Source: Okeania sp. SIO2C9 (GTDB taxonomy: Bacteria > Cyanobacteriota > Cyanobacteriia > Cyanobacteriales > Microcoleaceae). Taken from it: a stretch of DNA of 64,000 bases. The translations under genes were made by a program, and so were the position numbers. Of the stretch, positions 8,525 through 63,200 are shown piece by piece (within the stretch, counting starts at the first letter, position 1; every line of letters starts with the position of its first letter). The notes beneath the pieces were generated by a model. The model ran no database searches. It had not been told where the DNA came from and was given only the letters and a program-made list of their open reading frames with translations. Where the stretch lies: assembly GCF_010672455.1 (NCBI RefSeq), contig NZ_JAAHGO010000024.1, forward strand, positions 1 to 64,000, written 5' to 3'.

Positions 8525-10771
8525 TTCTTGCACCTCCTGTGGTTTCATTTGCATCCGCAACCATTGAGACAGAAGCGGTAATTTTATTTGATACTCATCT
8601 TCTTCTCCTGACTCTTGCTGTAGGATTAAACCAACTGATTCTAACCACAGCAAAGCATCCAAACACTCACTTTCTGTGAATTGATTTTGCAGTTTTTTCA
8701 GTATACCAGATGATGGAATTCCTGACTCAAGTTTTTCATTGCAAGCAAGCAACCGAATAATTGCCATTGCTGACTGAAACTCCCGTTTTTCTATATCGCT
8801 CCAAATATTTTGCCCGCAGTAATCTTTTAATACTCCTGAATAAGTGAATGGTTTGCTCAAATAACGTTGGGCATCAGCAAACTGGATATTACTTTCATTC
8901 TCTTTTGCTACTTTCTTGCACAATAAACTTGCTAATTGCCGAGAGACAAAGGGATGTCCGCCACTTCTAATATGAATTTCACTCTGAGTTTCTTCGTCAA
9001 AAGTAATTCCCATTAAGTTTCCAATATCAGTCAACATTCGAGTCGTTTCATCCGCAGAAAAGGGTACGACAAAAATTTCCTTGAAAAAGTTAAACACAGG
9101 ATTAGTGGGTACATTAGGTTGCTTCCATTGATTGATGCGGTTAATATCTGGATGAACATCCGCCACCAGTAGGGAAAGAGAACGTTTTTCCTGACTGACT
9201 GCTCGTAAAGCTCCGAAGAAAGCATTGCACTCCTCCGCTCGCTCCTTTGCATCTGTCTCAGTGGGAATGATGCGATCAATTTCATCTAGAAAAATTAGAA
9301 TGGGAAGTTGATAACCGACTTCAGTGAGTTGTTGAGTCAAATTTTGCAACTGTTGAGTAAATTCTGTTGTGAGATGGGCAGCAGGGCGATCGCTATCAAA
9401 TAATTTAGGGTGACTCACCATTTTTGCGGAACGGGACTCAATTAGTTGAAACAGTTTTGACAAAATTTGATTAAACAACTCTGCACCATAATGTGGTTTG
9501 CTGCCGTAAGTTTGCAAGTCAATATGAACTAAAGGATTTTCTCGCATTGCAAATCCCAATTGCAACAACAAGGAAGTTTTCCCAGACTTGCGCAAACCAA
9601 AAATGCCAATACCTTGACCTCGACGTAGATTTTCTTCCAAACGTTGTAGTAGTTCCCCTCTACCAAAAAATGTGAGAGTATCGCCGATGGCATTGCGGTC
9701 ATCAAATAGGTCTGCTCCTGGTAAATAGCGTTCTGTGTAATCAGCTAAAAGTCCTGAAGATTCTTTCTCCTCTTGTAGTGATTTTTCCACTGCTGTTAGA
9801 GGAATGGGAATGAGGATAAAGCGATCGCGCAATCTTACTTCCGCCATTCGCAGTCGGAAAAGAATATCTGGAGGTTCCCGATAGAAAATAATTCCTGCTT
9901 GTTGTTGGTTGGATTTTTTCATTTTGGTTGCTTGTTGCACTAGATCGACTACATCTTGAGCATCAGGTTGTTCTATTGCTAGGGAGACAGGTATGGGAAT
10001 GTAGGATTTTAGCTTGCCTGCAGCAGAGGTGATTTGCAATCCATGTTTACCATTGTCGCTAGTTGTTGCCCCTGCTTTTTGCAGAAATTTTTGTACCTCA
10101 ACTTTTAATCTATCTGTCGCTTCTTGAGCTAATTGCTGAAATGCTAGATTTCGCACCTCAACTTTTAATCTATCTGTCGCTTCTCGATCTAATTGTTGAA
10201 ATATTAGATTTATTACTATATCTACAAATTTATTTTGAAATGTGATTATAATCCGACGTAGAAATAAATTCGGGCGATACTGTAGATACCAGAATAGTAC
10301 ACCTCCAGCTAACACTATGGAACTTAAAATTAGGAACACAACTCGGCGGAAATTTCTAGCATAATGACTTCTAATCTCTGACTTATCATCAGGTTTTGAG
10401 ATTTGACTATTGATATATCGGTCAAGTGATTCCCTGATATTCTCAAATTCATCCTTAGACTCCTGAGATTCCTTAAAATCTGGATGATAACCCATATAGT
10501 TTTCAAATTTCAAAACACCTTGAACATTTGCTTTGCCAATTTCTCCCATTCCAAATTCTTTTAAGAATATAGCTTCCAGTTTCAAAGCAGAATCATTAGG
10601 CTCTGGATCGGGATATTGTTCCTCTAGTTCCTTCACTTTTTGTGCAATTTCCCTATCAATCTCCTTTTCTAACAGAGAAGCTAGAAGATTTCCTCCTATC
10701 ATCCAGAGCGCCACCAACCCGATGACACTAAACACCAACCAACGAAAAAATGTGAGTTTAGATTTAAACAT
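8510..10771 (-). CDS. Membrane-anchored AAA-type ATPase
   Basis: The 753-residue protein has an N-terminal transmembrane helix (about 11-33), an acidic/coiled region, a second transmembrane helix (about 143-163), and an internal duplicated amphipathic motif (EATDRLKVEV twice, about 195-232). A P-loop ATPase follows: Walker A FGLRKSGKTSLLL at about 392-404 and Walker B LIFLDEIDRI near 480. The motif GGHPFVSRQLASLL is shared with its neighbour's GGHPYLIQQLL, and a winged-helix-like C-terminus ends the protein. Start ATG 10771. It is co-directional with the ATPase at 7159-8334 and the two look like paralogous NTPase modules, one membrane-tethered and one soluble. They could work together in membrane-associated signalling or defence, but this is inference. 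Confidence 0.8.
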   Translation of the reverse strand: MFKSKLTFFRWLVFSVIGLVALWMIGGNLLASLLEKEIDREIAQKVKELEEQYPDPEPNDSALKLEAIFLKEFGMGEIGKANVQGVLKFENYMGYHPDFKESQESKDEFENIRESLDRYINSQISKPDDKSEIRSHYARNFRRVVFLILSSIVLAGGVLFWYLQYRPNLFLRRIIITFQNKFVDIVINLIFQQLDREATDRLKVEVRNLAFQQLAQEATDRLKVEVQKFLQKAGATTSDNGKHGLQITSAAGKLKSYIPIPVSLAIEQPDAQDVVDLVQQATKMKKSNQQQAGIIFYREPPDILFRLRMAEVRLRDRFILIPIPLTAVEKSLQEEKESSGLLADYTERYLPGADLFDDRNAIGDTLTFFGRGELLQRLEENLRRGQGIGIFGLRKSGKTSLLLQLGFAMRENPLVHIDLQTYGSKPHYGAELFNQILSKLFQLIESRSAKMVSHPKLFDSDRPAAHLTTEFTQQLQNLTQQLTEVGYQLPILIFLDEIDRIIPTETDAKERAEECNAFFGALRAVSQEKRSLSLLVADVHPDINRINQWKQPNVPTNPVFNFFKEIFVVPFSADETTRMLTDIGNLMGITFDEETQSEIHIRSGGHPFVSRQLASLLCKKVAKENESNIQFADAQRYLSKPFTYSGVLKDYCGQNIWSDIEKREFQSAMAIIRLLACNEKLESGIPSSGILKKLQNQFTESECLDALLWLESVGLILQQESGEEDEYQIKLPLLSQWLRMQMKPQEVQEWQIS

Positions 10772-10860
10772 GACGACAACAGAAAGTTCAAAAGTTTAAG
10801 AAAGCTAATTCTATCAAGTCATTATTAAGTTTACCTCACTATACAAACAGGTAAAAATTC

Positions 10861-11620
10861 CTATTGCGACATACGCAATAAAACCAACAATAGAACTGAG
10901 TAAAAACTCCTATTGCGACATACGCAATAAAACCAACAATAGAACTGAGTAAAAACTTCTATTGCGACATACGCAATAAAACCAACAATGGAACTGAGTA
11001 AAAACTCCTATTGCGACATACGCAATAAAACCAACAATAGAACTGACAGGACTTATGCGCGGACACTAAATCGAGAGGGCGAATGGCATTCGCCCCTACA
11101 GATGACGTTTTCAAGGTGAATTTGCGTAAGTCCTGACTGAGTAAAAACTCCTATTGCGACATACGCAATAAAACCAGAAATGGAACTGAGCAAAAACTCC
11201 TATTGCGACATACGCAATAAAACCAGAAATAGAACTGAGTAAAAACTCCTATTGCGACATACGCAATAAAATCAGAAATGGAAGTGAGTAAAAACTCCTA
11301 TTGCGACATCCGCAATAAAACCAGAAATGAAACTGAGCAAAAACTCCTATTGCGACATACGCAATAAAATCAGAAATGGAAGTGAGTAAAAACTCCTATT
11401 GCGACATCCGCAATAAAATCAGAAATGGAAGTGAGTAAAAACTCCTATTGCGACATCCGCAATAAAACCAGAAATGGAAGTGAGTAAAAACTCCTATTGC
11501 GACATCCGCAATAAAACCAGAAATGAAACTGAGCAAAAACTCCTATTGCGACATACGCAATAAAACCAGAAATGAAACTGAGCAAAAATTTCTATTGCAA
11601 CATCCGCAATAAAAATCGTG
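10861..11620 (+). repeat. 49-bp tandem repeat array, 14 units, hairpin in each unit
   Basis: CTATTGCGAC starts at 10861, 10910, 10959, 11008, then 11151, 11200, 11249, 11298, 11347, 11396, 11445, 11494, 11543 and 11592 (the last degenerate), an exact 49-bp period. Each unit contains ATTGCG-ACAT(A/C)-CGCAAT, a small hairpin. Units before the MITE end in ACCAACAATAG; most later ones read ACCAGAAATG, indicating local expansion. 49 is not a multiple of 3 and frames close quickly, so it is non-coding. There are no variable spacers, so it is not CRISPR. Confidence 0.95.
11047..11135 (+). mobile_element. MITE, ends CAGGACTTATGC / GCGTAAGTCCTG, inside the 49-bp array
   Basis: An 89-bp element with inverted ends is flanked by ACTGA on both sides (11042-11046 and 11136-11140). 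The gap between array units here is 143 bp, which equals 49 + 89 + 5. Insertion plus a 5-bp target duplication therefore accounts exactly for the spacing. The interior holds the palindrome GGGCGAATGGCATTCGCCC. Confidence 0.95.
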
Positions 11621-11643
11621 CTATTGAATGGATTTGATATTAG

Positions 11644-11850
11644 TTAGTCGTCTGGAAATTGCCAACAAGAAATACGTTCGATATGGGAACTTTTGCAGCT
11701 CGGACATATCTCTTCAAATGAGGAATCTACCCATTCATATCCACAGTTGTGACAATGACAAAAGATATTATTAGTATTAGCTAACTCAATTTTTTTCTGC
11801 CAAGCTTGCAATAATGAAATATCTTCTTTTTTATTATTAGTTTCTGACAT
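11644..11850 (-). CDS. Small zinc-ribbon protein
   Basis: The 68-residue protein has a C-terminal half carrying CHCHNCGYEW and CPSCKSSH, i.e. two CxxC knuckles about 16 residues apart, a rubredoxin/HypA-like zinc ribbon. The N-terminal half is a charged helix. A metal-binding or protein-binding adaptor role is likely, with no specific pathway recognised. It stands alone between the repeat array and another repeat cluster; the start at 11850 follows AAGAGAAATG without a strong ribosome binding site. Confidence 0.65.
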   Translation of the reverse strand: MSETNNKKEDISLLQAWQKKIELANTNNIFCHCHNCGYEWVDSSFEEICPSCKSSHIERISCWQFPDD

Positions 11851-13900: not shown

Positions 13901-14061
13901 TTCAGTTATCAGTTATCAGTTATCAGTTATCAGTTAGCCTCCTATCGGAGGAACTGCGTTAACAATACCTCTGCAATAAGAAGGCTTGATCTCAGAAATA
14001 TTATCTTTTTTTATGAGGCTTGAGACCAAAATTTTTCGGTCATAATTATAAATATTTTAGG

Positions 14062-14213
14062 TGTTCAACAATTAATTATTAATTATTAATTATTAATTAT
14101 TAATTATTAATTATTAATTATTACCTTTCCTTTAAAACGGATAGGATAGATGAACAGAAAAATTTTTCTTTATTATCTCCTGAGAAGGGGAGGCTTTAAA
14201 CCACAATTTTTCG
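14062..14213 (-). mobile_element. TTAC-targeted palindromic element (family P), copy 1
   Basis: On the minus strand TTAC (14214-14217) is followed by CGAAAAATTGTGG, then a CCTCCCCTTCTCAGGAGATA hairpin, then AT-rich tail ending in ATTAATTATT repeats. It has the same left end as the copies inside the tnpB relic at 28276 and 28692. Confidence 0.65.
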
Positions 14214-20628: not shown

Positions 20629-20733
20629 AAGACCATGTGGTTTATCAATCAGCAAAAGCGCTGTAAAACTCAGACAACGCCAGATTTTCTCTTCTGCGTT
20701 CTTCAAGTTTTTACTACTCTCCTACTCCCTTAC

Positions 20734-21058
20734 CGAATTATTAATAATTAATAATTAATAATTAAATAATTATGGTTTAAAGCCTCTCCTTTTAAGGGGA
20801 AAAAAGCGGTCGAGGGATGGCGCCATTCGGAGCGGCTCTGTCAAGAGCGGGTCTCCTCGCCATATCCAATCGACCAAGAAAAGAAATAATATCTCCTTAT
20901 ATTCAATTCCGGGTAGTGGTGCATTGTAATTTTTTCGGTAAGGGTATAGCAAGCATTTCAGCCACCATTCACCATTACTATACAGGACTACCCAATTCCG
21001 TAGCGGTTAAAACCCGAGGTAATTATCAATTATCCATTATCAATTATCAATTAATGAA
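20734..21058 (+). mobile_element. TTAC-targeted palindromic element (family P), copy 2, with cassette
   Basis: TTAC (20730-20733) is followed by CGAATTATTAATAATTAATA, a CCTCTCCTTTTAAGGGGAAA hairpin, and the GCGGTCG...CGCCATATCCAATCGACCAA cassette, ending in ATCAATTATCAATTAATGAA. The region from 19826 to 21061 holds no protein gene that I can support; it is this element, the structured element before it, and a GGGGCGAATGGCCATTCGCC palindrome at about 20288. Confidence 0.6.
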
Positions 21059-27055: not shown

Positions 27056-27191
27056 ATTCTTTGGCGTTTGACAATAAATTTGAGTAGTTTGTGCAGCATT
27101 CCGCACCGGAATTGGCAGTAAGGAGTAGGAAGGTTGCATGGGAGGAATGTCCGCGCCCTATTTGCGTAGTTCTATAGATGAAGCAGATCTT

Positions 27192-27302
27192 CAACAATTA
27201 ATTATTAATAATTACTTCGGCTGAAAACGGATAGGATTGGCAAACATAATTTTTTTTCTTTATTTCTTTAAAGAAGAAGAGGCTTTCAAGATTAATTATT
27301 CG
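27192..27302 (-). mobile_element. TTAC-targeted palindromic element (family P), copy 3
   Basis: On the minus strand TTAC (27303-27306) is followed by CGAATAATTAATCTTGAAAG and a CCTCTTCTTCTTTAAAGAAA hairpin, and ends in ATTATTAATAATTAATTG. Nothing else gene-like is seen between 27056 and 27393. Confidence 0.6.
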
Positions 27303-27741: not shown

Positions 27742-28275
27742 TGTACTACCCCGACTATATTTTTTTATATATTCCTATTATATCATATCACCTTCAAACT
27801 ATCATAATCCGGGAATTAAGATAGGCACATTAACTGAAAAAGTATACACCATACTTAACCAGATAAATTCACAAAAAACAATTTTCGACGAGGCATAAAA
27901 TAACATTAATGCCACTAACTTAAGAAGATAAAATAAGGCAGAAAGGTTAATAAAGACAGATAACGTAAATAATCCGAAAAATAGTTACCGAAAAAGTTCG
28001 AGAGCTGGAAAGCCCGGTCACTTCAGTCCAGGTATGAAAAGCGATACGGCGGTTGCCTCCTGGGGAGGAGCTACGCTATCAACCGCCAGTAAACATATTC
28101 TATGAGTATAGCAGTACCTTCTTTAGCGCTTGACAATAAAATTGCTGATAGTTCTGGAAATGTGGTTGAATCTCCAAGATACTATCGAAAAGCATCAAAA
28201 AGATTAAACCGATTAAATAGGAGAAAGTCTAGGAAATACCGGAATCCAGGTAAAGGAAAAAAGGGAGCCAAAATG

Positions 28276-28492
28276 TTCAACAATGAATAATGAATAATGA
28301 ATAATGAATAATGAATAATTACCTCTCTATGAATTGAAATTGAAGAGGATTGACAAATTCATGAAAATTTTTCTTCACAGGAGTCGATTGGATATGGCGC
28401 AGGTTTCCTCGGCATCCCATCCTAACGGACTGCTCCGCAAACGACCGCTTATTATCCCCTGAAAAGGGGAGGCGCATACCCACAATTTTTCG
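28276..28492 (-). mobile_element. Family P element, copy 4, inside tnpB
   Basis: 217 bp from TTCAACAATGAATAATG to CACAATTTTTCG. Removing it joins AAAATG directly to GTAAAGGTTCCC, restoring the TnpB frame region. It contains an approximately 80-bp cassette (GTCGATTGGATATGGCGCAG ... AAACGACCGC) absent from copy 5. Confidence 0.85.
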
Positions 28493-28691
28493 GTAAAGGT
28501 TCCCAAACAACGACAGTCAAATAATTATCACAAAGCTAGAGTTAGATATGCACGAAAACATTTAAAAGTAAGTAGGCAGCGTGAAGAGTTTGTCAAGAGA
28601 GTGGCCAACTGCGTCATCCAGTCTAATGATTTGGTCGCCTATGTAGACACGGAGTGGCGTGCCGAAGGCAGATTTGAATGTAAAAGGCATG

Positions 28692-28822
28692 TTCAATAAT
28701 GAATAATGAATAATGAATAATGAATAATTACCTCTCCATGAATTGAAGAGGATTGACAAATTCATGAAAATTTTTTTTTATTATCCCCTATCCAAGGGGA
28801 GGCGCATACCCACAATTTTTCG
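28692..28822 (-). mobile_element. Family P element, copy 5, inside tnpB
   Basis: 131 bp from TTCAATAATGAATAATG to CACAATTTTTCG. Removing it joins GGCATG to GTAAAAAATCAG, i.e. TnpB residues GM-VKNQ. On the minus strand the element begins right after TTAC. Confidence 0.85.
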
Positions 28823-29232
28823 GTAAAAAATCAGAATTTAGCGAAGTCGATAAATGATGCAGGATGGTTAACATTTAGAAGATGGTTAGAACGTTTTGGT
28901 AGAAAGTATGGAAAAGCAACTGTAGCGGTTCCGCCACATAATACTAGCCAAAATTGTTCTAGTTGCGGTCAGACAGTCAAGAAGTCTCTATCTTCTACAA
29001 ACCCACATTTGTGATCATTGTGGGTTTGTAGAAGATAGAGACATAAATGCAGCATTGAACATTCTGCAAAAAGGACTTTCTACGGTGGGGCACACCGAAA
29101 GTAACGTTTGGGGAGACACACCCTCTAGTTGTGTAGGAGAAATCCTGCATAATTATGGTGAGTCATTGTTCGCGCAGCGTTGCGCCAGCAAACCAAGAAT
29201 CCTCGTCGCCTTAGCGCGGGGAGTGTCAATAC

Positions 29233-35924: not shown

Positions 35925-36055
35925 TTCGAGAGTATTTTTTGCACAAGCTGTCCTGCGTGGCAGTCGCTACAATGCCATCCCATCCTAGGTCATGCTGCGC
36001 AAACGACCGCTTATTATCCCCTATCCAAGGGGAGGCGCATACCCACAATTTTTCG
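35925..36055 (-). mobile_element. TTAC-targeted palindromic element (family P), copy 7
   Basis: On the minus strand TTAC (36056-36059) is followed by CGAAAAATTGTGGGTATGCG, then the CCTCCCCTTGGATAGGGGAT hairpin and a GCGGTCGTTTGCGCAGCATG cassette. The left boundary is uncertain. Confidence 0.6.
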
Positions 36056-39188: not shown

Positions 39189-39840
39189 AGAAGGTCTTAT
39201 ATAGAATCCGGGTAATTAGTTATCGTATTACTGAGGAGTAAGGAGTAAGGAGTAACGAGTAACGAGTAACGAGTAATATCAAATCCAGTTGAATACTTAA
39301 TTGTATTGTTGGGGGAGATGGGGAGATGGGGAGATGGGGAGATTGAATAATGAACATATACTATATAACCGGATTCTATATTAGGTGTTAGGTTTTAGGT
39401 GTTATACCAAGCGTGAAAAAAGAATGTTACGAATAGTAAGAGGAATAAAAAAACACGTGCAGGATATTCCCCTTTGGCAAAGCGGTCGATCTTCGGAGCT
39501 TCCCGTAGGGTGGGATGGCGAGGAAACCTGCGCCATATCCAATCGACCAAGAGAGCGGTGCGACCCCGCGACGACGCCAGTCGCACCTGGTAGCGCACCA
39601 AGACAAAAGAATGATTTCCAACCTGAAAAATAATGGTATTGAAGCTATTCCCGTGTGACTCGGTCTTCCTGACTCCCCCTCCTGGGAGGGGCGCGCGGGT
39701 GGGTTGACTCCTAAGAAATATCCTAGCTATTTGTAGCAAATATTTATCAATTTAGTATTATATCAAGTCTCATTAATTAGCCATAATAAAAATGTTCTTT
39801 TCTTGAGAAAGAATATTTTTTTGGTGCGGAATGCTGCGCA
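39189..39840. other. Gene-free stretch with nested palindromic repeats
   Basis: Contains GGAGTAACGAGTAACGAG and GGGGAGATGGGG tracts (39236-39345) and one copy of the GGCGAGGAAACCTGCGCCAT-ATCCAATCGACCAAGA cassette (about 39480-39560) outside a recognisable family P element. No gene supported. Confidence 0.5.
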
Positions 39841-41191: not shown

Positions 41192-41535
41192 CGAATAATT
41201 AATAATTAATAATTAAATAATTCGCGCCTTGAAGCCTCCCCTTGGATAGGGGAAAAAAGCGGTCGAGGGATGGCCAGGTCCCCTCGCCATATCCAATCGA
41301 CCAAGACAGCGGTCGTTTGCTTTTGCTTCGCAAAACTGGCGTAACGCAACGCTGACGCGAAACGCGACAGCGGAACGGAGTTCTCTCTTCGGAGCTTCCC
41401 ATAGGGTGGGATGGCGCAGGTTTCCTGCGCCATATCCAATCGACCAAGAAAAGAAATAATATCTCCTGATATTCAATTCCGTAGCGGTTAAAACCCGAGG
41501 TAATTATCAATTATCAATTATCAATTATCCATTAA
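41192..41535 (+). mobile_element. TTAC-targeted palindromic element (family P), copy 8, with enlarged cassette
   Basis: TTAC (41188-41191) is followed by CGAATAATTAATAATTAATA, a CCTCCCCTTGGATAGGGGAA hairpin, and the GCGGTCG / CCATATCCAATCGACCAAGA cassette in two nested copies (41262-41310 and 41400-41450). The tail is ATCAATTATCCATTAATGAA. Open frames here are artefacts of the repeat. Confidence 0.65.
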
Positions 41536-41779
41536 TGAAAGCACTTTTCAGATTGGTGAACCACACATTCAAAATAATAATACTTGTAGGGACGTTCCAT
41601 GGAACGTCCCTACTGTGGTCGATTCAAATGAAAACTGCTGTAGACATTTTTTCGGCTATAAACTAGCCAAAAAAATGTCTAGGCAGGGGAAAGACGTTAA
41701 AGCCCTAAAATTGGCTAAAACCCTTATCAATACTGGATTTATACCTTTTTTGCCTAAAAGTCTATCTTTAGAGTCTGGA

Positions 41780-50251: not shown

Positions 50252-51703
50252 ATGTTAAACAAAAATTCAGTTTTTGTTCTAAATAATAACAAAGTACCTT
50301 GTGACCCAATTCATCCTGCTAAGGCCAGAAAATTATTATCGGAAGGTAAAGCAGCAGTATTTAGAAACTATCCATTTACTATTATTTTGAAGTCGGAATC
50401 AAAACCCACAAAAAATTACAGAATTAAGGTTGACCCCGGTGCAAAATTTACTGGTTTAGCTTTGCTATCAAATTCTAATATAATTTGGTGTGCTGAACTT
50501 GAACATAGAGGCTTTCAAATATCTGAATCATTAATTAAACGTAGACAAGTTAGACGTTTTCGTAGAAACCGTAAAACCAGATATCGTCAACCTCGGTTTC
50601 TCAATAGAACTAGACCGAATGGTTGGTTGCCACCTAGCTTAATTAGTAGAGTTCAAAACATTAAATCTTGGGTTGATAAGTTAATCAAACTTGTTCCAGT
50701 TTCAGCAATATCAATGGAATTAGTTAAGTTTAATACCCAGAAGATAGTTAATCCAGAAATACAAGGAACTGAATATCAAAAAGGTGAGTTATTTAGTTAT
50801 GAGGTTAGAGAATATCTACTTGAAAAGTTTAATCGCACTTGTGTTTATTGTGGGACTAAAGAAGCTGTATTTAATTTAGACCATTTCCACCCTAAGTCTC
50901 GTGGAGGTAGTGACAAAGTATCTAATTTAGTTCTTAGTTGTGTTCAATGCAATCAAAATAAAAGAGCTAGATTACCGACTGAATTCCTGTCAGACAGACC
51001 TAAATTACTAGCATTAATAAATAAGCAAAGAAAGTTACCTTTAGCTGATGCTGCTGCTGTTAATGCTACTAGGTGGAAACTGAAATTAGTCTTAGAATCT
51101 ACTGGATTAGAAATAGAGACTGGCTCTGGTGGTTTAACTAAATACAACAGGAAACGTAATGGTATTAGTAAATCTCATTGGACTGATGCTGCTTGTGTTG
51201 GTACTTCTACTCCAGATAGTTTAAATATTAGTAACTATCAGCCATTAATAATCAAAGCTATGGGTAGAGGTAATAGACAAATGGTTAAGCCAGATAAATA
51301 TGGTTTTCCTAAAACAAAGCCTAAACTAAGACAGAAATTATTCTATGGTTTTCAAACTGGAGATATTGTCAAAGCTGTTGTTACTAAAGGTAAAAAGATT
51401 GGCACTTATGTTGGTCGAGTTGCTGTTAGAAAGACTGGCAATTTTAATATCAAAACTCAAACTGAAACCGTGCAAGGAATTAGTTATAAGTATTGTAAAA
51501 TAATCCATAAATCAGATGGATACATTTATAGTTTTGGTGAATTAGTTAAACAGGAAAGTACTAACTTTGTCAAGAAGGTAGTTAAAGTTTTAAATACTCC
51601 AATTCAACTTAATTTGTTTGATACTTCTGAGTTAACTACTGTTGGCGTTAGCGTTGCAAAGGAAAGTACAAGCAAAAGTCAAAAGGAAAAAGAAAAAGTT
51701 TAA
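50252..51703 (+). CDS. iscB: IscB: RNA-guided HNH/RuvC nuclease
   Basis: 483 residues with all IscB parts in order: PLMP-type N-terminus (VFVLNNNKVPCDPIHPAKAR), RuvC-I KVDPGAKFTGLAL (D61), arginine-rich bridge helix (RRQVRRFRRNRKTRYRQPRF, 97-116), RuvC-II AISMELVKF (E156), HNH with CVYC (197-200), LDHFHPKSRGGS (H211) and CVQCNQNK (230-237), RuvC-III HWTDAACVG (H307, D310), and a C-terminal domain. Both nucleases look intact. ATG 50252 follows AATAGGAGATTC. No tnpA in the window. It lies inside the oxidase operon between the DUF2231 pair and ctaC, in the same direction. Length is typical for IscB. Confidence 0.93.
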   Translation: MLNKNSVFVLNNNKVPCDPIHPAKARKLLSEGKAAVFRNYPFTIILKSESKPTKNYRIKVDPGAKFTGLALLSNSNIIWCAELEHRGFQISESLIKRRQVRRFRRNRKTRYRQPRFLNRTRPNGWLPPSLISRVQNIKSWVDKLIKLVPVSAISMELVKFNTQKIVNPEIQGTEYQKGELFSYEVREYLLEKFNRTCVYCGTKEAVFNLDHFHPKSRGGSDKVSNLVLSCVQCNQNKRARLPTEFLSDRPKLLALINKQRKLPLADAAAVNATRWKLKLVLESTGLEIETGSGGLTKYNRKRNGISKSHWTDAACVGTSTPDSLNISNYQPLIIKAMGRGNRQMVKPDKYGFPKTKPKLRQKLFYGFQTGDIVKAVVTKGKKIGTYVGRVAVRKTGNFNIKTQTETVQGISYKYCKIIHKSDGYIYSFGELVKQESTNFVKKVVKVLNTPIQLNLFDTSELTTVGVSVAKESTSKSQKEKEKV

Positions 51704-60003: not shown

Positions 60004-60070
60004 AATTTAGAATTTAGAATTTAGAATTACCTATCCTTTAAAAGGGGAGACTTTATACCACAATTTTTCG
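60000..60070 (-). mobile_element. TTAC-targeted palindromic element (family P), short copy 9
   Basis: On the minus strand TTAC (60071-60074) is followed by CGAAAAATTGTGGTATAAAG, then a CTCCCCTTTTAAAGGATAGG hairpin and TTAGAATTTAGAATTTAG tail. Confidence 0.6.
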
Positions 60071-60287: not shown

Positions 60288-63200
60288 CTACTCTTCTTCC
60301 TGACTTGCTGTCTCCGACTGAGCAACTGCTGCGGCAAATTCTGGATTTTGTTGTAGGTCTTCTGAAACTTCTCTTGCTTCATGTAAACCAATAGCATCTG
60401 ACCACTTAGTATAGTTATCCCATTTGATATCACTAAGGTCGGCACCACTGAGGTTGGCAGCAAAGAGATCTGCACTACTAAGGTCGGCATCACTGAGGTC
60501 TGCATAAATGAGATCAGCACCACTGAGGTTGGTAGCAAAGAGATCTGCACTACTAAGGTCGGCATAACTAAGGTCGATACCATTAAGGTCAGCATAACTA
60601 AGGTTGGCATCACTGAGGTTAGCACTACTGAGGTTAGCACTACTGAGGTCGGCATCACCGAGGTAGACACCACTAAGGTTAGCACCACTAAGGTAGGCAC
60701 TACTGAGGTCGGCACGAATGAGGTCAGCATCTCTGAGGTCAGCATCTCTGAGGTAGGCACTACTGAGGTCGGCACGAATGAGGTCAGCACTACTAAGATC
60801 GACACCTCTGAGAAAACTACCTACTATTTTCACAAAAACAACAACTTTAGGACACTTGCTATAAGCAATAATTCGCAGTAATCTTCTTCGATCAAAATCT
60901 TCACTGCCAGGTTGACCACAAGGATAAAAATGCAACTGCTCCCGCAACTCTTCCTGAGACTGCCCATAACGATGCAACTCAAACAACAAAATCATTACAT
61001 TCAACCCCGTATAAATATCCACCCGACGTTGCCCAGACTCAATACCCCACTGCTGCAACTGCCTCCCCTTCTTCTGAGGTAAAGTTTCCTCCGTCGCCTC
61101 AATAAACTTTCGATCACTCCAATTCCAATAAAATTCATACAACCGCTCAAACAACACTACCAACTCAACCTCACTTTTCACCAACAACGCCATCAAATAT
61201 TCCACAACTTCCGCTGTCAAACTCCCATAACCAAACAGATCGTAAACCTGCCATTCCAACTCTTCATCAGATACTGCATAAGTTTTACGTCGCTTCCCTG
61301 TTTTCTCCGTCAAATCTTCCAGACTTTCCACCATCCGTTTTGCACAGAGAAACTCACCAAAACTCTTGTGGAAAAACTCCACCGAATTTTCTGCTTTTGC
61401 TGCCGATTTCAAATAAAACGCAGCTAAAGCATTTTTCAATCCATCCTCTCGTTTATCTTGCCGAGCATTCTCAATTAAATCCTGCAACTCCTTATATCCC
61501 TGTTTCACCAGTCGGTCTTCAATCATTTTTATGGCAGCATATTCCCCACCAGACTGCACCACACATAACCCCGCTTCTGCCAACAAAATTTCTAAATCTT
61601 CTGGGTCTAATTTCGTAATTTTCGGATTAAAATTTTTACCCTCTTCTACTCGCTGCTTCTCCAGCACCCATTTCAACGCCTGCTCATAAATCAAAACTTT
61701 CGCCCCACCAACATCAGCATGAGCAAACATCTCTACCTTTAACTGCTTATCCCGGTGCATTGCAGCGAGCAAATACAACAAAAGTGGTTCCCGTGCCAAC
61801 TCCTGAACCTGCTCCGGACATTTTTGACTCTGCAAAAATTCCCGAAATTTTTTTGTTTCCTCTTGCGCAACAATAGTCTGCCACTTCTCAAACCACCGTT
61901 GCTGAATTTCGTCACCCATTGGCAAAATACTCACCCGCTCCAAATTAGGAGGCATCAACCTTTCAATTCCATAAAGTGCCAAAGGTCTACCAGTAATTAA
62001 AACGCGATGACCGCGTTCGTTATTTTCTGCTGCCTGTTTCTGAAACTGCGCCACCTGGTCTAAAAACACCTTCAACTCATTACTTGCACCGCGCTCCAAC
62101 AACAACTCATCAAACCCATCCAGCAAAAACAGAAACCGAGTATTGTGGTCTGTCAACCAACCACTATCGCTAGTAACAAAATCTCTACCCACTGCATCAG
62201 CTAGAGTCTCATCAATATTTGCTGCAAAATTTCTCACATCCCGCAACCGAATTAAAATCGGCGTATATATAGGATGTAATTCCTGACGTACCCAGTCGGC
62301 AAACATTCGACAAAATACACTCTTTCCTCTTCCCGGTCCTGCTTGAATAAATAAAACCTGTTTGTCTTTTTTGTCTTGATTTTTCTTTTTATGCGAATTT
62401 TCATCCAAGTTTTCATCCAAGTTTTCATCCGAGTTTTTATCTAACAAAATAGTTTTTGCCCACTCTTCAATGTTCTGGGGTGTTGCTGTTTCTTCAACCT
62501 TCCCATCGGAGTTGACAGGTTTAACTTCTAGTGGTACATAAATCTGCTGAAAAGTGAAATTTTCATCAAATACTTTTTCGTCTGGTTTAGTAGCGATATT
62601 TTCTTTCAAATATTTATCAATACTGCCATAAATTTCCAAACATCGTTGCCACCCATACCCATAAATTCCGGCTAATTTTTTAGCATTGTCTTTCACCTCT
62701 ACCACTGCTTCTTTCATATAACGGTGGGTACTGCGAGAAATTCTTTCGGCAACAATTTTGGCTTTATTTTCAGCTAAACCAGATTCTTTAAAACGTTCAA
62801 TCAAAATTTCATCAAACTTTTCCCTCCAAGGTGAATCATAAAAACAAATTAAAGTATCCTTAGCATCTCGGTCATTAAAATTAATTTCTTCATCCAAATT
62901 TTTAATCCGTTTTTGTACCGCTTCCGAAGCCTCAGTTTCTGTCAACTTTTCCGATATTTCAGGATGGCTTATTAAAAATTTTCGTAAACTTTCTAAATAA
63001 GCCACCTGAACCACCAATTGTACTTCATCTTCTAAAGTAGGCTCTTTACGAGTTTTTTTCAATAATAAAAGTAATAATTCCAGTTGGAATAGGCAAAAAA
63101 GGTAAGCTAGCTCCGGCAACTTTTCCCAGGGGAGAATTTAACACATCCAAAACTGAATCAATATTCTCAATAAAAGGTTTTAACTCTTTAGCATCCTTAT

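Follow-up and report, generated by a model that had tools for sequence, protein, structure and literature searches.

Two short insertions in a decayed tnpB gene of Okeania sp. SIO2C9 are very probably non-autonomous IS200/IS605 (IS608-type) elements, or PATEs, that travel as single-stranded DNA with the help of a TnpA transposase acting in trans. This interpretation is favored because precise empty sites exist in a sister genome, the boundaries at TTAC and TGAA are sharp, the feet of the subterminal hairpins resemble guides, and a TnpA element of sister Okeania has nearly the same left end. The window analyzed, 64,000 nucleotides of a single contig, is part of a 10.88 Mb genome in 317 contigs.

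Both inserts lie on the minus strand, element 1 (217 bp) at 28276..28492 and element 2 (131 bp) at 28692..28822. As originally predicted, each separates ATG from GTAAA on the plus strand and starts directly after TTAC on the minus strand (28496-28493 and 28826-28823, respectively); both are located exactly between TTAC and C, in the minus-strand context TTTAC-element-CAT. The right-end tail of element 1 (28276..28321) consists of (TTATTCA)n ending TTGTTGAA, with a putative cleavage site TGAA at 28279-28276. Its right guide CAAT (28349..28352) adjoins a hairpin at 28348-28322, and TGCG occupies the left guide position (28473..28476) next to a hairpin at 28472-28456. In element 2, the heptad tail spans 28692..28730, with the guide CAAT at 28755-28752 and a hairpin at 28751-28731. 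In both inserts a stem is present at the left and at the right end, and the sequences of the two ends differ, so that there are no terminal inverted repeats. Three of the four hairpins are no more stable than shuffled sequences (z -0.77 and -0.12 at the left and right of element 1, and -0.84), and the right hairpin of element 2 has z -2.12. Among 124 two-ended copies described below, the +1 base is A in 41, C in 32, G in 27 and T in 24; given this lack of strong preference, the ATG common to both inserts is probably chance beyond TTAC. Longer copies (28384-28450; inverted kin near 39501-39547 and 41390-41444) contain an extra GC-rich module of about 70 bp, GCGGTCG...ATCCAATCGAC, that occurs elsewhere too; it is a small repeat nested within them and may be comparable to the SMR elements reported in Haloquadratum PATEs.

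The inserts are carried by a decayed tnpB-only (IS1341-like) element at 27989..29229 on the plus strand. Its ends are IS608-like: TTAC lies outside the left end (27985-27988), the left guide reads AAAG (28009..28012), the right guide GAAT (29197..29200) precedes the right hairpin (29201-29223, z -2.16), and the last bases are the cleavage site TCAA (29226-29229). The relic was compared with a related tnpB element at locus L175 of a sister Okeania genome (G002), in which AAAG is identical and forms the foot of CCCTG..CAGGG, followed by AT; the relic's own decayed left hairpin does not fold as drawn (z -0.53). Homology between the two starts exactly at the junction of TTAC with CGAAAAAG and stops exactly at GTGTCAA. 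Since two copies at different loci share these exact limits, we take them as the boundaries of the element; the tnpB relic that was first placed at 28102-29228 is thus real, with limits that had been drawn too narrowly. The last piece of the relic matches PF07282 (TNB domain, E 1.9e-9), and a Pfam search of its first piece gave no match. Compared with L175, the relic would be broken even without the inserts, its 5' part being deleted. It also has about 25 extra GC-rich bases near 28646-28670, CGGAGTGGCGTGCCGAAGGC, resembling a small dispersed repeat, and a palindromic change at 28984-29042, where a palindrome that is imperfect in the relative's tnpB has turned perfect in the relic, in the manner of a template-switch (quasipalindrome) mutation.

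At L175 the tnpB frame is open for 418 codons (PF07282, E 1.8e-21; PF01385, E 5.2e-18) and is uninterrupted at both insert places, where GGAGCAAAAATG is joined directly to GTAAAAGTT and TTAAGGGTATG to GTAAAAAAT. The open frame runs continuously through GAKMVKVPK and VKGMVKN at these places, which bears out the expectation that removal of the inserts restores TnpB reading locally. The search for empty sites in relatives, proposed along with the prediction, has therefore yielded two, and from them it follows that the inserts are precise, without duplication or loss; the target duplication typical of a DDE transposase is absent at both. L175 is related to the relic but lies at a different locus, so these are empty sites of the gene and not an orthologous locus: the next ORF at L175 is presumably acetate kinase, and the neighbor of the relic in the window is gcvH-like, unlike the L175 locus. 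Taken with the TTAC kept at the left end, the hairpin-plus-guide ends and the sharp boundaries, the two empty sites without duplication support the IS608-like transposition first proposed.

The left-end motif TTACCGAA occurs 11 times in the window including both inserts; the nine others, one of which is the tnpB element's own left end, compare with at least seven further copies originally claimed. Further copies are found on the minus strand at 14064..14213 (guide AAAG, TTAC target, TTAATTA-type heptad tail) and, more diverged, at 27190..27302 (AAAG, TTAC target). Left ends with unrecognized right ends lie on the same strand at 36011..36055 (TGCG) and 60026..60070 (AAAG), both after TTAC. Relatives after TGAC are found at 14038 on the minus strand and 43601 on the plus strand; the former, 13958..14038, has a CAAG guide and a provisional right boundary. 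A second family is represented on the plus strand at 41192..41539, an extent inferred from repeats, with a TTAC target, TTATCAA heptads at both ends and ends TTAATGAA; a scripted end search of the window found no match for its right end. At 20730-20941, TTACCGAA stands at either end in opposite orientation, possibly a composite of two families. Elsewhere in the window, a 483 aa ORF at 50252-51703 resembles IscB in its motifs, a 15-bp array at the end of a long ORF (60432-60836) appears by eye to code for pentapeptide-like repeats, and 49-bp tandem repeats (10750-11712; 14 register copies) adjoin an ORF.

A genome-wide motif search, following the earlier proposal to compare all copies, gave 308 exact left-end motifs in the genome (reversed control, 0), with TTAC directly preceding 298. 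Target choice had been thought strict but is not entirely so, as the other 10 lack an exact TTAC, and so do the TGAC kin in the window. A looser pattern gave 203 matches among the collected loci, of which 79, including chance matches, had no right end and were excluded. In the remaining 124 two-ended copies (60 from this genome, 64 from other Okeania) the four positions of TTAC are conserved in 122, 120, 124 and 123 copies and all four together in 119, and nothing else outside the left end is strongly conserved. At the right boundary, where the copies end TTGAA, the information content is 2.0 bits inside and drops to 0.03 bits at the first outside base; the TGAA end was built into the search pattern, so only the drop outside is a free test. 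The L175 empty sites place the TGAA end at the same position. For 55 of the 60 copies of this genome that have a near full-length partner, closest-pair identity has a median of 95.1% and a maximum of 98.4%. Two-ended copies are mostly 115-294 bp, with three parsed as longer (368-407). In the collection of species genomes, the left-end pattern was found in Okeania only among the matches listed (at least 63 stretches). A related TTAC element also lies within a tnpA gene of the same genome (L034, about 1875-2005).

Between the right hairpin and TGAA there is a heptad array, made up mainly of TTATTCA and TTATTAA units, whose length is 4+7n in 123 of the 124 copies and which spans 25 to 102 bases, or 3 to 14 units in steps of 7. 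The cleavage site lies in the terminal unit, TTGTTGA plus A, and TGA is found in none of the 11 internal unit types listed. IS608-like right ends that we examined in this taxonomic order have few bases between hairpin and cleavage site. The tail may be an array made by slippage that is looped out between hairpin and cleavage site; internal units would remain uncut because they have no TGAA, and growth would be tolerated because the guide selects the terminal unit only. The chances are about even that slippage produced the array passively and that it plays no role in transposition, as the variable number of units in steps of 7 would suggest; against this, position, period and the CAAT/TGAA pair are kept though the units differ (TTATTCA, TTATTAA, TTATCAA). 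The strict 7-base-period right-end tail is new here: we found no paper tying heptad arrays to IS200/IS605 right ends in the mostly open-access literature searched.

A source for the transposase was sought in this and related genomes. Locus L281 (G001) is a complete TnpA/TnpB element of 1714 bp that begins CAGAAAATTGGGTTTAAAGCCTCCCCC directly after TTAC, with AAAG, an intact tnpA and an open tnpB frame of 421 codons. L280 (G004) begins CGGAAAATTGGGTTTAAAGCCTCCCCC after TTAC and has AAAG, an intact tnpA and a broken tnpB; L285 (G004) is a partial third member with TGAC and CAAG. The AAAG class of inserts starts CGAAAAATTGTGGTTTAAAGCCTCCCC, nearly the same left end as L281. The match is confined to the left end, as the right end of L281 consists of GAAT, a hairpin and TCAA without heptads, unlike the inserts. 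We regard the L281-type TnpA of sister Okeania as a candidate helper. No close TnpA was found in the SIO2C9 assembly, where the best relative of the L281 type has 46% identity, so that the copies of this genome look orphaned, with no helper beside them. The flanks (1.5 kb) of its 20 PF01797 (Y1 transposase) matches, L031-L050, were searched for the family's ends. L031, L032 and L033 are open and full-length, and L041 is open at positions 6-119 with a weak match (E 1.6e-9); the family's left end is absent within 1.5 kb of all four. The autonomous tnpA element with matching ends that had been suggested thus has counterparts at the left end in sister Okeania (L280 and L281) and none in this genome. 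Another candidate, L210, was dropped, as it has His at the catalytic Tyr position and its guide does not fit. The TnpA lineage reached via L210 was traced in 42 of 148 genomes of the order at E 1e-25 or better, and its left ends are laid out like those of the inserts. L225, which has a TnpA of this lineage, shows a CRISPR-like array (GTTTCAATACCTCATAGGCATTATACGTTATTTCAAG) close by in its right part.

In IS608, bases 1 and 2 of the left guide AAAG pair with positions -3 and -4 of TTAC, according to the accessible part of PMC5934647; that guide base 4 pairs with -1 is our reading of the rule. The AAAG two-ended copies, 66 of 70 of which are at TTAC, fit this pairing. At the right end, CAAT is found at the hairpin foot in 115 of the 124 copies, and the terminal bases are TGAA; compared with GAAT/TCAA in IS608, guide base 1 differs, and so does base -3, in a way that preserves their pairing. 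Covariation of guide and site among IS200/IS605 elements has been discussed before, and no novelty is claimed for the rule itself. Thirty loci of the TnpA lineage together with L210, L280, L281 and L285 were examined with the guide sequence left unconstrained. Left ends could be parsed in 25 of these 34, giving 14 TTAT/AAAA, seven TGAC/CAAG, two TTAC/AAAG and two misfits (L210, which has TGAC with AAAG, and L246). All three pairs are satisfied in 23 of the 25, and 72 of 75 pairs overall; in shuffles of the guides the mean was 50.3 and the best 65, with none of 20000 reaching 72, a result to be taken as support and not as a probability because related sequences are not independent. Of the nine unparsed loci, L227, L247, L251 and L252 are consistent by eye, and L233, L240, L241, L253 and L254 are without a clear end. 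This count supersedes a narrower one that demanded AA and left out 9 of 30 loci (54 of 57 pairs; best shuffle 53). A scan for guide, hairpin and site gave many chance matches, useful as a lead only; applied to 30 tnpB matches out of at least 150, it found little. Since the TGAC and TTAT kin have matching guides, the target appears to be encoded by the guide and not to be fixed. Within one transposase lineage (TTAC, TGAC, TTAT) there is thus natural evidence that IS608-style guides and cleavage sites change together.

The most numerous class of this genome is less easily accommodated. Among the first 100 of the 308 left ends, classed by eye, 58 have TGCG, 34 AAAG and 8 others. The T and G of TGCG are unpairable as the rule asks, and TGCG therefore does not match TTAC; all 46 two-ended TGCG copies and all 50 TGCG left-end matches are nevertheless at TTAC. 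It is possible, though we are inclined to doubt it, that this majority subfamily is off the guide rule, its target being set by TnpA, by an upstream GTA (complementary to TAC) or by another contact; the GTA match is three bases long and may be chance. TGCG is a large natural class that seems to break the IS608 guide rule, and this is testable.

If the inserts are PATEs, TnpA would bind both subterminal hairpins. The left guide would pair with the TTAC left outside the element and with the TTAC of the new target, the right guide CAAT would pair with the terminal TGAA, and the element would travel by a single-strand route and insert 3' of TTAC without duplication. The TnpA lineage of L281 may have moved the copies seen here. 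A very improbable alternative is that these are REP/REPIN-type elements, mobilized by a domesticated TnpA(REP); such elements likewise have a hairpin with a foot tetranucleotide and many copies. Against this, the feet here are AAAG/TGCG and CAAT, not the GTAG-type tetranucleotides described for REP elements in the available portion of PMC6006769, the copies have clean boundaries at mostly 115-294 bp, and the kin TnpA of L280, with the motifs DHVH and YIQNQ, comes close to class 1.1 as defined there. MITEs of the ordinary kind, mobilized by a DDE transposase and likewise short, non-coding, genome-wide and of high copy number, are hardly credible, given two precise empty sites without target duplication and ends that are asymmetric, TTAC being fixed at only one of them.

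Relatives in the same genome end in (TAACTGA)nAATGAC, and the 20-base sequence TAACTGATAACTGAAATGAC occurs in 228 copies (control, 0). In L035, which is complete, TGAC flanks the element, CAAG stands at the left foot and again ahead of the right hairpin, and the last bases are TGAC, in agreement with the pairing prediction. Apparent hybrids (L267, L270 and L278) combine a TTAC-type left end with a TAACTGA/TGAC-type right end, which suggests end swapping. A recount of TAACTGA arrays gave 42 in Okeania loci, 32 of them fetched without an AATGAC-containing pattern and 10 with one. Among the 32, AATGAC is the end of 16, the foot sequence precedes 13 (random, 0.05%), CAAG lies upstream of 11 (9.1%) and a left end upstream of 10 (3.3%), and seven have both left end and CAAG (0.4%); the whole structure is accordingly absent in 25. 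The 10 pattern-fetched arrays showed the foot in four, CAAG in three, a left end in four and both in one. In another genus (G109, G126; 13 arrays) CAAG was found three times, a left end twice and the foot never, and the link there is weak. A free hairpin test gave 16 of 26 arrays in the Okeania group, here all loci outside the other genus and possibly including further genera, and five of 12 in the other genus, neither above the random 67%. The exact 20-base pattern occurs in three of 291 genomes of the class examined, so no wide spread of the link is seen. The sequences thus point to a partial link, new and in Okeania, between TAACTGA repeats and transposon right ends. For some of the heptad repeats, at least, this link offers an origin in mobile elements, where no mechanism of spread had been known. 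We suggest, tentatively and with considerable doubt, that TAACTGA and related tandem heptads, in cyanobacteria and giant sulphur bacteria alike, could largely be right-end tails of single-strand transposons, built of units that nearly copy the heptad of the cleavage site, in which only the last unit would match the guide among decoys and the array would grow freely.

In the accessible text of PMC4679880, translational regulation is suggested for TAACTGA, a transfer mechanism is described as not evident and mobile elements are merely possible; in that of PMC4853749, the heptamer and IS605 remnants are treated separately. The heptad of the TAACTGA repeats of Beggiatoaceae and Cyanobacteria (PMC4679880) is identical to that of the TGAC-type relatives here, but some of the arrays described here have a CAAG-footed hairpin on one side and a TGAC end on the other. 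With IS608 (ISHp608) of Helicobacter pylori, as presented in the portion of PMC5934647 available, the family shares TTAC as left cleavage site and target, subterminal hairpins, the absence of target duplication and, in one subfamily and the candidate helper, the left guide AAAG. It differs from IS608 in having CAAT/TGAA in place of GAAT/TCAA, a heptad tail, no genes and a TGCG majority. Non-autonomous IS200/IS605 elements are known as PATEs in Haloquadratum walsbyi (PMC3119063, available part). Like the elements described here, these are transposase-free, with near-terminal palindromes, no terminal repeats and no duplication, and IS605-type elements are among their targets. Here, in addition, guide pairs, a candidate helper and a strict 7-base tail could be identified, and a single motif finds 308 left ends, compared with at most 194 PATEs in any one genome of that study.
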